From an uncultured Flavobacteriales bacterium (lineage in GTDB: Bacteria; Bacteroidota; Bacteroidia; Flavobacteriales_G; Salibacteraceae): a stretch of 64,000 nucleotides of DNA. The notes beneath the pieces were generated by a model. It was not told the origin of the DNA. It saw only the letters and a list, made by a program, of their open reading frames with translations, and did no database searches. How positions within the stretch are numbered: position 1 is the stretch's first letter; every line of letters begins with the position of its first letter. The stretch spans positions 124,001-188,000 of the forward strand of contig CALSRJ010000004.1 in NCBI GenBank assembly GCA_943788725.1, in the 5' to 3' direction. A program made the translations under genes and the position numbers. Shown here one piece after another: positions 7,863 through 58,781 of this stretch.

Positions 7863-9128
7863 TGGATGGAGTCGAATTTGGTGTAAGGTACTAATACGGA
7901 AGGAATGCGAATTTGTTCTCCGTTAAAGTTGTTTTCGAGCAGGGCGGCCATGATCCGTGGCAGGGCAAGGGCGCTTCCATTCAGGGTGTGTGCCAACTCC
8001 TTTGCACCGTCTTTTCGTTTGATCCTCAACTTCATCCGGTTGGCCTGGTACGTCTCGAAGTTGGATACGGAACTCACTTCCAACCAGCGGTCTTGACCGG
8101 CAGAGAAAACTTCCAGATCGAAGGTTAAGGCTGAAGTGAATCCCATGTCGCCACCACAGAGTCGGAGGACTCGGTAAGGCAATTCAAGTTTTAGCAGCAA
8201 GCTTTCAACGTGGGCTACCATCGTATCCAGCGTAGCGTAAGAAAGTTCGGGCTTTTGGATCTGGACAATCTCCACCTTATCGAATTGATGCAGGCGGTTT
8301 AGTCCACGCACATCCTTTCCGTAAGACCCAGCCTCTCTTCTGAAACAAGGGGTGTAGCCCGCGTTCTTGATCGGCAAACGCTCTTCGTCGATCATTTCAT
8401 CGCGGTACATATTGGTGATTGGAACCTCTGCTGTTGGGATCAAGAAAAGGTCGTCTTCGGTGGCGTGATACATCTGGCCGTCCTTATCAGGCAGTTGCCC
8501 AGTTCCGAAGCCGGATGCGGCGTTGATCATCAACGGAGGAATGACTTCGGTAAAGCCAGCGGCTTCGGCTTCATCCAGGAAGAATTGGATGAGGGCGCGT
8601 TGTAGCTTGGCCCCTTTGCCCGTGTAAATGGGGAACCCTGCGCCGGTGATTTTGACGCCCGTTTCGAAATCGATGAGGCCATAACGGGTGGTCAATTCCC
8701 AGTGTGGGGTCTTGTGTGCTGATGGGAGTGGCCTCTCCGTGCGTGCGCACTATTTCGTTGTCTTCGCTGTCTTTTCCAGCTGGAACACTTTCATGCGGCG
8801 TATTTGGAATGCTGGATAGAAGGGACGTCATTTTTGACTCCAACTCCTTGAGCTTTCCATCGAGTTCTTGGTTTAGTTGTTTGAGGTCGCCCGTACGCGC
8901 TCGAGCTGCGTTGGCTTCATCCGTTTTTCCTTGCTTGAAGAGCATGCCAATCTCTGCTGCAACTTTCTTTGCTTCGGCGAGATTGCCATCCAAGGCTTGT
9001 TGTGTGCTTCTGCGTTCTTCATCAACGGTAAGCACTTCGTCAACGACGGCTGTCGCATCGATGTTTCTCTTCTTCAGGGCATCTATAACGGCTTGACGGT
9101 TTTCCCTGATGTGTGCGATGTGTAACAT
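7859..9128 (-). CDS. serS: Seryl-tRNA synthetase, interrupted by an apparent one-base insertion
   Basis: Charges tRNA-Ser with serine. The frame from ATG 9128 gives the N-terminal coiled-coil tRNA-binding arm (MLHIAHIRENRQAVIDALKK) up to NTPHESVPAGKDSEDNEIVRTHGE near residue 135, then leaves the family and stops at 8571. The +1 frame supplies PHWELTTRYGLIDFETG and the whole class II catalytic domain, including FRREAGSYGKDVRGLNRLHQ (motif 2) and LNGSALALPR (motif 3). Removing one base from the GGGG run at 8706-8709 (CCCC on the coding strand) joins both parts as ISTQDPHWELTTRYGL and gives 422 aa, the normal length. A sequence error is the simplest reading for an essential gene. Confidence 0.9.
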
Positions 9129-40176: not shown

Positions 40177-40743
40177 GTGCATTCGAAACTAAAGACCGCA
40201 TTTGTACTCACGCTAGCAGGATTGGTTTTCCTTGCTTGGGTTACGGCACCTGTCCATCCAAGGCTGAAGTCAGGAATTATTGACGCGCATGTTCTCGAGT
40301 CAGACGATTTGTATTTCAAGAACATCAGAAAGGCCTACTATCAAGTTGAAATACGCGAGGATGCCAAGTTTGAATTACTGCGTTACAAAGACCGATGGGT
40401 GGCTTCAGACGGAATGGCTTCGGGACCGTTTTTTACGATCGTCTCGAATCCTCGATTCGATGAAGCTTATTTGATGTTGGAATGGGCAGATGAATTCCTT
40501 CGTGATTCTCTTACTCTTGAAGTTCTTGGCGGGGCTGAGAAATTCAAATTCACCACCACGGGAGAAGGAGTTGCTGTGCATGCGAGCATTGCGGCTTCAT
40601 TGTTTGAGAATCTGTACGATGGAGAGCTGAAGTTTTATGCCCTATACCAGGGGAAGCGCGAGGAGATTTGGAAAACGGAAGGGCAGCGGAAGGTTTTGCG
40701 CACGGTGTTCAAGGACTATTTTCGACTAGTGGGTGCGATCTAA
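40177..40743 (+). CDS. Protein of unknown function with N-terminal membrane anchor
   Basis: 188 aa from GTG at 40177. A TTG at 40138 would add 13 residues but would crowd the divergent desaturase start. SKLKTAFVLTLAGLVFLAWV is a membrane anchor or signal. The rest is a soluble beta/alpha domain (LYFKNIRKAYYQVEIREDAK; GPFFTIVSNPRFDEAYLMLE). No family was recognised. The last 18 bases overlap the 3' end of the convergent histidine kinase gene. Confidence 0.65.
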   Translation: MHSKLKTAFVLTLAGLVFLAWVTAPVHPRLKSGIIDAHVLESDDLYFKNIRKAYYQVEIREDAKFELLRYKDRWVASDGMASGPFFTIVSNPRFDEAYLMLEWADEFLRDSLTLEVLGGAEKFKFTTTGEGVAVHASIAASLFENLYDGELKFYALYQGKREEIWKTEGQRKVLRTVFKDYFRLVGAI

Positions 40744-42939
40744 GTTTATCGGTATGGTGATGGTGAAACGGGTTCCCTTTCCTTCCTCACTTTCTGCTTC
40801 AATGGTTCCACCGATGCCTTTGACGTATTTGATGACCATACGCAAGCCGGGTCCGGCCCCATATTCATTGTTGGTTCCCAATTGCGAGCCATCTCCTGTG
40901 GTCATGATGCGGTGCAATTTTTCGCGTGAAATACCGATGCCATGATCGCGGATAGTGGTTTGTACTTCGTCCTTGTCTTGAACGTATTCGATTTCAATGG
41001 AAGAATCATGGTGTGAATACTTGATCGCATTCGAGATCAGGTTTCTCAGGATGAGGGAAGACGCCATCCGATCCGTTTCGAGCTGAACGCTGGAGTGAGC
41101 CTTCAGTTGGATGCGAATGTTCTTCAGCTTTGCAAGTGGTTGTGATATGCTGATCACCTCTTCTACCACGTCTGACCACTTGAATGGAATCTTTGCAGGG
41201 ACGTAGCCATCGCGCTGTGAGATTGCCCACCCCACGAACGAGTCGAACATCAACGACAGGTCTGAACTTTGTCGGTAAAGGTCCTTGGAAAGGATCATGA
41301 ATTCACTCATTTCAATGTCTGAAGATTGCAATAGCTCCAACGTAAGTTTCACGTTGTTCAGCGGACCCCGAAAATCATGACTGATCAGCGAGATGATGCG
41401 CTGGTTGATTTCGTTGGACTCTTCAAGTGATCGGATCATACGCTTGCGCTGAAGCCAATAGAAGAAGATCAATCCAGCCACAAAAACCATGATGATCAAG
41501 GCGAACGAAGTCAGCAGGAACCGGTTGTTCTGCTGTTCAATCTCCAGTGATTTCAACTGTGATTCGTACTTGAGCTGGCGGATGCGGTCTTCGTTTCGAT
41601 CTTGGTAAAATTCGGCCTCTAATTGCAGCGCTTTAAGCGTCTCCTCTTTGCTGAGACGATTAATTTTTAATTCAGAGAAGCGCTGGAAATAAGCTATGGC
41701 ACGCTTTGGGTCACGTTCCTGTAAAGACTTGTAGAGTCCTTCTAGCGATATCATTTCCTCATACTCGTCTGAACCGCCTTCTAACATGAGAAGTGCGTGT
41801 TCGAAATAGAGAATCGCCGAATCACTTTTCCCCTCTTCCATAGCGACCTGCCCAAGGTTGTTGAAGGCCTCCGCTACTCCTAGTTCATGGTTTAGCTTAT
41901 GAAACAAGGCCACCGCTTGGGTGGAATAGATCTTTGCACTGTCGAGTTCGCCAATCTGCCTAAAAATCAAGGCGAGATTGCCAATGGGGTAGGCAATCTC
42001 CGGGTTTCCAGGAGTGAGTTTCCGGTGGTAAAGCACCGAACGACGAATGGCGGATAGGGCGCTGTCGATTTCTCCGTTTCTGTAATAGATCCATCCAAGG
42101 GTGTTGTAAAATTCATCCCAAGTCTCATCTACCGTTTCGTCTACGAGAGGCCGAACAATCATCGCGTATTCAAGCGCGCGTTCGAAGTCAGACATGGCTT
42201 CGTATACACTCGTGAAAGTGTTGTAAAGCCCTTCGAAGCACTGCACATCACCGCTTTCTTTGTAGGCGTTTTCGGCCAACAGGCAGTATTCAATCGCCTT
42301 GGGCAGTCGGTCAAAAAAGAAGTGGTAGTTTCCTAAGAACTCATAGTAAGGGCCATACAAAGAAGGCTTTTTAACACAGAGCATTTCAGCTTCTTCCAAA
42401 AACTCGAGATACGTCGAATCCGTTTCATCAATGCACTCGAGGAAGCGAGCCTTGTAGATCAAGGCTTCCATGAGGAGGGAGTCGTCTTCGTTCTGTTGGC
42501 ATAATTGGATGAACTCGTCGGCGAGTCCAAGACCGTAGGTGCAGTCTCCAAAGAATGTGCTTTGGGTCATGACTTTCAAGTAGGCCTGCTGCGCTATGCG
42601 AAACGAAGGTTGAAATGTTCGAATGATGTTGAAGGCACTGTCGTAATGAACCTTTGCTTCTTAGTAGTGATACGTGACGATGTCCACCGAAGCGTCGGTG
42701 AGTTCCCATCGGATCTTGATTTCGTTAGAAGGGGTCTTTTTGGCGCGCGATTGCCCCAAGCATTGACGCGCACTGTCGAGCATGGTGTAGCGTGCAAATG
42801 CTTCGCACATTTCGCATTCGAATAGTTTTACTTCCGGAGTTTCACGCATGCGCTTGCGTAAAGAATCCAGCTCTGGGTTTTGCGCTAAACCCCCAAGGGT
42901 CATTGTGAAGATCGATATGAAAAGCAGGAGCCGCTTCAC
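40726..42939 (-). pseudogene. TPR-containing sensor histidine kinase, interrupted by an in-frame TAA
   Basis: One frame from GTG 42939 to the stop at 40726 (738 codons) codes for a signal peptide (MKRLLLFISIFTMTLGGLAQ), TPR repeats, a membrane helix (LLTSFALIIMVFVAGLIFFY), and a kinase with H-box LISHDFRGPLNN, N-box NLISNAIKYS, G1 DHGIGIS and a G2 of GAGPGLRM. A TAA at 42661-42663 cuts it after residue 92; EAKVHYDSAFNIIRTFQPSF continues directly in the same frame, matching TPR helices. So either the gene is truncated or one base is wrong. Restart is possible at TTG 42579. No response regulator is adjacent. Confidence 0.82.
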
Positions 42940-43101
42940 GGTAGTTGCACGGGGCAAATGTTCGTGCCAAGGTATGCATTCGCTGCATACGCTGGGTTGG
43001 AGTTTCGCAGTTTCGGAAGGCTTGAGGATTTGCCCACAAAACGAAACCATGTCTCGGTGATGTGGGTTTGCCAATCCTCGAAATTGACTTCATTTGCCTT
43101 C

Positions 43102-56149: not shown

Positions 56150-57052
56150 TTAGAACATAAGCTGTACACCCATGTCGAATGGTCTGATCTCACCTGAGGT
56201 TCTTCCATTTTGAAAGAGTGAATTCAAGCCGTAGTTAGCATACACATTCACAGGTCCGTATCCGATGCTCGCAGTGGCGTGGAAGAGGAAGGGATTCAGG
56301 TCAAAATCACTTTTGTACTTAAGCGTGTTGTTGTCTCCATTCTCACTGTATCGCTGCTTCAATCGCGAGCTCATTCTCCAAGATACTTGGCCGCCTGCGG
56401 CGAAACGAAATGCCTTTTCTTCTTTCTTATTCGTGCTGAATCCAATCATCAAAGGCGCTGTCAAGTAAGATGCCTTGAGCTTGTTCTTGTCGAATAGACG
56501 TGTACTATCCGTGTTGTACGAGAAGGGTACGGTCGGACGAAGGGTAGTGTATTGGCTGTTGAACGTGTAGTTCGCAAAGTGAAATCCGAGTCCTGTCACC
56601 AATTCGATGTGTTGCTTGTAGAGTTTGAAATCCTTTTCAATAAGGTTCAAATCCCAGCTCACGCTTCGGCCGTAATCAAGTTCCATGTTTTGATCGGCTG
56701 AGGGGATCCACAATCCATCGTTATGGAGAAAGCCGTTTACGCCAATTCTAATCCCAGCCCAGTGGCTTACTGGATCATCCTTATCGTCGTCCTTATCTTC
56801 ATCTTCCCAATCTTCGGTGTCGATTTCCATACCGTCTACTATAACACGGTCAGACCCTTTGTCGTTATCGCTGAGAACGATGATTTTCATTCCGGCCACT
56901 TTGACGATGGTTGAATCTTGCCCTTTCTTAGGTGAGATCACAACTTCGACATCGCCGGTGTCTGATCCTTGAGTTGCTACTGAATCGTTTTGAGCGAAGG
57001 TCACGGAGACCAGGAGGCTCAAGATCAGTGTTATTGTTGCTGTAGTTTTCAT
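56150..57052 (-). CDS. Outer-membrane beta-barrel protein
   Basis: 300 aa with signal MKTTATITLILSLLVSVTFA. A 75-residue soluble part with a poly-acidic stretch (EDWEDEDKDDDKDD near residue 80) precedes a barrel of about eight strands: GIRIGVNGFLHNDGLWI, WDLNLIEKDFKLYKQHIELV, TGLGFHFANYTF, FRFAAGGQVSWRMSSRL and FDMGVQLMF at the end. The PorT-like arrangement is common in Bacteroidota. It follows the sigma and anti-sigma genes and is likely in their regulon (inferred). Confidence 0.78.
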   Translation of the reverse strand: MKTTATITLILSLLVSVTFAQNDSVATQGSDTGDVEVVISPKKGQDSTIVKVAGMKIIVLSDNDKGSDRVIVDGMEIDTEDWEDEDKDDDKDDPVSHWAGIRIGVNGFLHNDGLWIPSADQNMELDYGRSVSWDLNLIEKDFKLYKQHIELVTGLGFHFANYTFNSQYTTLRPTVPFSYNTDSTRLFDKNKLKASYLTAPLMIGFSTNKKEEKAFRFAAGGQVSWRMSSRLKQRYSENGDNNTLKYKSDFDLNPFLFHATASIGYGPVNVYANYGLNSLFQNGRTSGEIRPFDMGVQLMF

Positions 57053-57117
57053 GATAATTCCTTTTTGTTTGCTGTAGGACGGTGGGGTCCGAGAGAAGTT
57101 ACAGGGGGGGGTGAAAT

Positions 57118-58182
57118 TTATTTGTAATTCACCCGCTTGAACTCGAAGTTCCCAGCCATGAACTCAAGCGAACGCTTGTCATCACTAGGGTCGGATGTGT
57201 TGAGCGCAAGGGCTTCTCGGTCATCAACTGTCTTCACAAATCCCTCGCGAATCAGGTCTTTGGTGGTTGAGGCATTTTTTGGGTCCAAACCGAAGAATCG
57301 TTTACCGATAAGTTGAGTGAGGTTCATTGCTTGTCCGCGCGTTGGTTCTTGCTGAGCGTATACCTCGTCACTCGACCATATTGAGATCGTTGGATTGTAT
57401 GCCATCAAGTCTCGCTTTTCAAAAGCTGCCGAAGCATCGACTCCGAGTTGCGGTTGGAGAGAAGGCAATTTCTTAGGAGACGCTGAACGCTCTGTACGGG
57501 AAGGTGCACTAGGTGCTTGCACAGCAGCTAGCGTCGCAATGCTTGTTTCATCCTCTGCGCGATCATTGATGGGGATAATGGTCTTATCGGCCGCTTCGAG
57601 GGCAGGTTGAGAAAAGTCTTCCATAAGAGAGTAGTCAAGGGACTGAACCCTTGGTACGTACACCTCATCGTTGAGCATATTGAGCACGGTCATACCGCCA
57701 AGTGCAATTACGAAGATGGCAGCCGCTCTATAAGCATATACGCGGGTGTTCTCCCATAGTGGTAGGGAACGTTTCAATGCGGCGTGCTCGGGGTAGACCA
57801 CATTCACGTCAGAAGCAAGGCGCGTTTTCTGATAAAGCGTATGGTCTTGAACCAGGGCTGGATTCTTGTCTAGGAAAAGCGCTAGTTCTTCTTGACCAGC
57901 TTCATCCAATGTCTCTTCTACATCATGAATGAAATAGGATTCATAGTTTGAAGCGTCGATAGAGGGTGTAGCCTCAACGTTGATTTTAAGAGATTCCTTA
58001 TCAACTGAGCCTTCCATTGGGATAAGAGCTTCCATTTCTCGCAGGCCTTCGATCTCTTCGGCTATATCTGCATGCGTCAAAAGAAAGGCTTCAAAGGCGG
58101 TGTGAAGAGCCGGACTCAGCGTTCCCTCGATGTAATCCAGGGCGTGTAGTTCGTAGTTCGATATGTCGATCTTTTGGCTCAT
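57118..58182 (-). CDS. Anti-sigma-factor-like membrane protein
   Basis: 354 aa. An N-terminal cytoplasmic part of about 155 aa (ELHALDYIEGTLSPALHTAF near residue 12) leads to one membrane helix (RAAAIFVIALGGMTVLNML, residues ~153-171) and a periplasmic part of about 180 aa. There is no zinc-finger motif. Its ATG overlaps the end of the ECF sigma reading frame (ATGA), so it is translated with the sigma and most likely controls it. The TM topology fits anti-sigma proteins, but the sequence lacks a recognised family. Confidence 0.7.
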   Translation of the reverse strand: MSQKIDISNYELHALDYIEGTLSPALHTAFEAFLLTHADIAEEIEGLREMEALIPMEGSVDKESLKINVEATPSIDASNYESYFIHDVEETLDEAGQEELALFLDKNPALVQDHTLYQKTRLASDVNVVYPEHAALKRSLPLWENTRVYAYRAAAIFVIALGGMTVLNMLNDEVYVPRVQSLDYSLMEDFSQPALEAADKTIIPINDRAEDETSIATLAAVQAPSAPSRTERSASPKKLPSLQPQLGVDASAAFEKRDLMAYNPTISIWSSDEVYAQQEPTRGQAMNLTQLIGKRFFGLDPKNASTTKDLIREGFVKTVDDREALALNTSDPSDDKRSLEFMAGNFEFKRVNYK

Positions 58183-58667
58183 AGTACTGCTTCGATGCTT
58201 CCGATGTGTTGTTTCAATTTCTGTCTTCCTCGGAAGATGTAGACCTTCACTTGCGAAAGCGTAAGGCCCGTAATGTCTGCTATCTCATCGTAATTGTATC
58301 CTTCATAGTCGCGGAGAAGGATCACGCTGCGTTGAATCTCTGGAAGCGTGTTGAGCGCTTCGTGCAGTATCTCCTGCAGATCGTGGCTTCCCTGGTGCGT
58401 CTACTCGTTGGTGGGTGTTTCGTCGATGTTTTCGTATTTCTTGTCTCTTCTAAACCCATCGATGATCTTGTGGTTGACTGTTGTGAAGAGATAGCTTTTC
58501 ACTTTGGTCGGATCCACCTGATCCCTACGCTCCCATAACTTGACGAACGCATCTTGCACCGCATCCTTGGATACATCCTCGTCCTTGCACATAGACATAG
58601 CAAATCTGAAAAGGCCATCGGCCCATTGATCTACGATCTTATTGTACTCTTTTACGGTCAAGGTCAT
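58179..58667 (-). pseudogene. ECF-type sigma factor with in-frame TAG between sigma regions 2 and 4
   Basis: One frame of 162 sense codons and one stop runs from ATG 58667 to 58179. Region 2 (KDAVQDAFVKLWERRDQVDP and SYLFTTVNHKIIDGFRRDKK) is followed by TAG at 58401-58403 after PTNE, then by region 4 in the same frame: LNTLPEIQRSVILLRDYEG and YNYDEIADITGLTLSQVKVY, then RGRQKLKQHI. Without the stop it would be a normal ~162-aa ECF sigma. It overlaps the anti-sigma gene by four bases. Either it is truncated (lacking the -35 reader), or the stop is an error. Confidence 0.85.
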
Positions 58668-58781
58668 CAAGGTTGCTGTGGGTGAGACGACGACAACCGG
58701 GTAAAGTTACAGCAGATTGAAAGTTTTTTGAAAAAGCCGTCCAACTATCCTGATTATGTTTGTTCTCTCTAAAGACAAGCT

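Follow-up and report, generated by a model that had tools for sequence, protein, structure and literature searches.

An in-frame TAG codon interrupts an ECF sigma factor gene in the window (the whole stretch of 64,000 nucleotides analysed here, contig C4, 124001-188000), and is very probably a recent nonsense mutation that has inactivated a putatively autoregulated sigma factor, in a unit that has been repeatedly lost within the genus. Ordinary recurrent gene loss, not a new form of decoding, is the most likely account of the stop.

The interrupted gene and its unit

The source genome (G000), a member of the Bacteroidota, comprises 2.93 Mb in 7 contigs and is 99% complete. The sigma gene is the first of a three-gene unit on the minus strand, followed by a gene for a candidate anti-sigma factor and one for an outer-membrane barrel, and the features of the unit are as follows:

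58686..58711, minus strand: promoter of the ECF type before the sigma gene, TGTAACTT-N14-CGTC (exact match, genome search)
58667-58179, minus strand: ECF sigma gene, 162 codons, with ATG at 58667 and stop TGA at 58181-58179
58404..58667, minus strand: first 88 codons of the sigma gene, with region 2 (Pfam PF04542, Sigma70_r2; E 2.2e-13)
58401..58403, minus strand: TAG in frame as codon 89 (context GAG TAG ACG), within the variable linker that separates region 2 from region 4
58179..58400, minus strand: 73 codons past the TAG in the same frame, with intact region 4 (Pfam PF08281, Sigma70_r4_2; E 2.8e-19), then TGA
57118..58182, minus strand: candidate anti-sigma gene, 354 aa, with an N-terminal part of two three-helix units, a single membrane helix predicted at about residues 148-172 and the C-terminal part outside
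57078..57103, minus strand: second promoter of the ECF type, before the barrel gene, TGTAACTT-N14-CGTC (exact match, genome search)
56150..57052, minus strand: outer-membrane beta-barrel gene (PF13568, by Pfam), intact

The first-pass annotation had placed a TAG between regions 2 and 4 and had described region 4 as intact in one frame up to a 4-bp overlap with the anti-sigma gene. Both points are confirmed, the former by Pfam region matches on either side of 58403-58401 on the minus strand and the latter by the region 4 match, in a frame that ends in an ATGA overlap between the sigma TGA and the anti-sigma ATG at 58182. The protein has the ECF architecture, with no regions other than 2 and 4 and about 20 residues of linker between them (the architecture allows fewer than 50), and is kept from being one continuous polypeptide in this genome by the TAG at codon 89. 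The site is sense-coded in orthologues, with the sister genome G008 (96% identical) and the more distant G005 and G003 (79-80%) all running through. Because these orthologues continue across the TAG site, comparison of the sequences indicates that the stop lies within an otherwise conserved reading frame and is not there by chance.

From established ECF biology, a sigma factor product with region 2 only would be unable to read a -35 element. Ribosomes stopping after codon 88 would release a region 2 fragment lacking the domain that reads this element, and such a fragment could fire neither the putative promoter of its own gene nor that of the barrel gene, although both retain the presumed recognition sequence. 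Autoregulation is putative and is suggested by the position of the first promoter before the sigma gene itself. The sigma, anti-sigma and barrel genes, probably along with two small exported proteins encoded elsewhere, would then be silent or expressed at a basal level. We infer that the stop is real in cells and that the truncated product is inactive.

Both the sigma and the barrel gene are preceded by AAC at the -35 position and CGT at the -10 position, a combination typical of ECF promoters (PMC8103513), and both promoters are intact in G000 despite the interrupted sigma gene. Exact matches to TGTAACTT-N14-CGTC number 0-4 per genome in the genus versus 0-1 for the reversed pattern, and most of the genus matches lie upstream of sigma and of barrel genes, while TGTAAC-N16-CGTC is found at the equivalent place upstream of sigma in most of the genus. 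The promoters presumably belong to this sigma factor. Two further exact matches in G000 precede tandem paralogous genes for small exported proteins of 102 aa (C6:18302 and 19160); a homologue in G001 (L255) has the same promoter. Judging from these promoters, the two small exported proteins are likely members of the regulon.

The 354-aa partner is very likely an anti-sigma factor, because the predicted N-terminal domain superposes on the known anti-sigma factors RslA and RsiW and because its gene shares the ATGA overlap with the sigma gene. A Pfam search of the protein gave no match, and its homologue in G005 touches zf-HC2 below the cut-off of that family. Within a structure model that is poor as a whole (pLDDT 56), residues 1-50 and 71-120 are predicted fairly well (pLDDT 73-90) and residues 148-172 form a long helix. 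Foldseek returned nothing at E < 0.001 for this model. Re-alignment of solved chains with VIA-align placed RslA first (Z 6.5, 2.8 A, 55 of 56 residues), followed by RsiW (Z 6.2), with the remainder at Z 4.0 and below; Z values of 6.2-6.5 are moderate, and a common helical arrangement could contribute to them.

Comparison with the sister genome bears on the age of the lesion. Over the sigma gene, dN/dS between G000 and G008 is 0.054, and the decay is therefore young. Codons 1-78 differ by 14 synonymous and no amino-acid changes, and the part past the stop by 9 synonymous and 2 amino-acid changes. The first-pass annotation had argued that conserved coding after the stop speaks against old decay, and this is borne out by these counts and by the intact promoters of the operon, the retention of which before both sigma and barrel fits a recent event. 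Most of the divergence from the sister may predate the stop, so that the comparison bounds the age of the lesion and is no proof of function. One of the two amino-acid changes past the stop, Tyr to His at codon 154, falls in a column that is invariant in eight intact relatives and is possibly the first sign of relaxed constraint.

Recurrent breakage of the unit in the genus

The sigma gene is broken in 5 of the 13 genus members compared, each by a different lesion:

G000: TAG in the linker
G007: TAG in region 4, remainder intact
G010: insertion of a DDE transposase (PF01609) at the end of the sigma gene; anti-sigma and barrel genes gone
G001: in-frame deletion fusing a truncated sigma at region 4 to the C-terminal part of the barrel, with loss of the anti-sigma gene (L159 7814-8890)
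G011: 5-nt deletion at the start of the sigma gene, region 4.1 replaced, stops in the anti-sigma and barrel genes

In a tree of the genus genomes built from the TrkA and M43 proteins, the five lesions occupy five separate tips; with full support, G000 has an intact sister in G008 and G011 has one in G003. The neighbouring trkA and M43 genes carry no lesions in 26 copies, versus 5 of 13 for sigma (Fisher p = 0.002), such that independent inactivating lesions are found in related lineages beside intact neighbours. The first-pass annotation had held that close relatives with the same stop and a degraded region 4 would count against its reading. Broken sigma genes do occur in relatives, but no lesion repeats that of G000; only G007 has another TAG, at a codon of its own and with region 4 otherwise intact. 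The genus relatives with identified records are all metagenome assemblies.

Among 395 genomes of the class, orthologues with an E value of 1e-38 or lower occur in 168. No internal stop outside the genus was found among the at least 140 orthologues listed, and three flagged TAA codons in the class-wide set precede the start codon. The genus differs from the rest of the class with p = 0.007 for nonsense lesions only and p = 2e-6 for all lesions, the latter value being too optimistic, as orthologues with a frameshift or truncation receive lower scores and may be missed by the class-wide search. Within the family, more than half of the other members compared either lack sigma or have diverged too far, a patchy distribution that fits repeated loss. 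The unit would appear to be dispensable or sometimes disadvantageous in the genus, and to be lost repeatedly by whatever mutation comes first.

Several of these loci have further peculiarities. The replaced region 4.1 of G011 (L160, about 8630-8700) is a short unrelated piece that reads YIPNTFTPNNDG, which we take to resemble the start of gliding-motility C-terminal domains; a search for its donor in the same genome gave only a weak match, 76% over 37 bases. G010 has extra frameshifts resembling sequencing error, with a carboxyltransferase gene spread over three frames (L158 5387-6927). In G020, from another genus of the family, the sigma gene (end of L248 and start of L249) combines a TAA in the linker with a frameshift and is cut by a contig break, and the two contig ends carry inverted-repeat-like sequence, as if a transposon lay inside.

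The window contains a second recurrently broken signalling gene, encoding a TPR-histidine kinase (40726-42963, minus strand). In G000 its frame holds a TAA at 42663, flanked on either side by intact coding; the G008 copy carries a frameshift, and the copies of G007 and G011 contain stops. An amber bias among the lesion stops of the genus was considered at first, as many were TAG, those in the G007 and G011 kinase copies among them, but the stops in the G011 anti-sigma and barrel genes and in the G000 kinase are TAA, which leaves no clear bias.

Other explanations of the stop

An assembly or base-call error, in which case the cells would have a sense codon at this site and a normal sigma factor, is unlikely. 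The species is represented by one assembly, and the intact region 4 and promoters are as such an error would leave them. The only serS gene of the genome (9128-7859, minus strand), which lies on this contig too, differs from that of the sister by a 1-nt insertion and is intact in relatives holding the full gene; this frameshift is probably an assembly error, and base-level errors therefore probably occur in this assembly. An audit of the one contig against syntenic relatives, in which most raw matches proved to be shadow ORFs or upstream extensions and were removed on visual inspection, nevertheless left three clear lesions (serS, the TPR-histidine kinase and sigma) in 118.6 kb of conserved sequence, a rate at which we estimate the chance of a stop in a given 486-bp gene to be below 0.1%. 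Two of the three, those in the kinase and sigma genes, fall in genes independently broken in other species, which is not expected from an error process. The TAG is moreover part of a cluster of five codons whose meaning is not that of the sister's codons (80, 86, 88, 89 and 93), as expected for natural divergence of a variable linker.

It is conceivable, though very doubtful, that the loss of region 4 has itself been selected, with a fragment of region 2 only, or leaky low-level production of sigma, being useful in the genus. The first lesion lies past region 2, which is intact from the start codon, in G020 and in four of the five broken genes of the genus; these cases are too few for significance.

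Functional amber readthrough, by which the TAG would be decoded often enough to give some full-length sigma factor, is highly improbable. The linker is the least conserved stretch of the protein in the orthologue alignment and could tolerate almost any residue, region 4 is still conserved, and G007 is a second species in which the gene is intact apart from a TAG. The amber suppression put forward for checking in the first-pass annotation nonetheless finds no support: no tRNA with anticodon CTA (CUA) was found among the 36 tRNAs of G000, all typed, or among the 30 of 35 tRNAs typed in G007; RF1 is present in G000; and TAG is in normal use, terminating 24 of 149 other long ORFs on the contig. 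The position of the stop is not conserved either, being sense in G008, G005 and G003, with the TAG of G007 in region 4. The RNA fold past the stop is only weakly better than shuffled sequences (z -1.7, 9 of 200 as good), and the lesions of the three other broken genus genes could not be bypassed by readthrough. Readthrough, recoding and a split sigma factor are all unlikely, and the last, in which the intact and adjacent halves would yield regions 2 and 4 as separate polypeptides like those of the two-subunit sigma factor SigO-RsoA of Bacillus subtilis (PMC8103513), is scarcely credible, as region 4 here lacks an ordinary start (only CTG, ATA and ATT precede it, and the first in-frame ATG, GTG or TTG, the GTG of codon 115, already lies within region 4) and no relative shares the split.

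Related systems

For the favoured reading, inactivation by a recent nonsense mutation, the closest precedent is rpoS of E. coli, which is known with an amber codon 33 and many other inactivating alleles, and the loss of which can be selected (PMC2700278). The two cases share a TAG that interrupts the frame of an alternative sigma gene and is followed by intact coding, and in both a single sigma factor has been lost repeatedly and independently, through point stops, deletions or duplications. They differ in that rpoS encodes a group 2 sigma factor with losses within one species, whereas an ECF sigma factor is affected here in several species, and in that rpoS losses have been selected in the laboratory, whereas the losses described here may be either favoured or tolerated. 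A lone nonsense allele in a regulator is nothing out of the ordinary; the striking feature here is that five of 13 species have independently suffered damage to one small ECF unit, whereas the adjacent genes, and the orthologues elsewhere in the class, are whole. This makes the unit a natural setting in which to ask under what conditions bacteria fare better lacking a sigma factor for envelope stress, as is known for rpoS in E. coli; for stops in metagenome assemblies, read-level checks are needed before interpretation. Some E. coli strains carry amber suppressors, in contrast to G000, where no suppressor tRNA is among the tRNAs found.

Among Bacteroidota ECF (group IV) units, those near NCBIfam NF058625 (sigma_PG0214 / GFO_1088) are similar. 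The G000 protein read through the stop scores 123.7 bits against this equivalog and the intact G008 protein 124.3 bits, near but outside its cut-off of 130, and the G000 copy differs further in being interrupted. The literature on PG0214/PGN_0319 yielded no function transferable to this sigma factor. In both cases the sigma factor has regions 2 and 4 only with a short linker, and its gene is accompanied by an overlapping anti-sigma gene, an AAC...CGT promoter in front and an outer-membrane protein.
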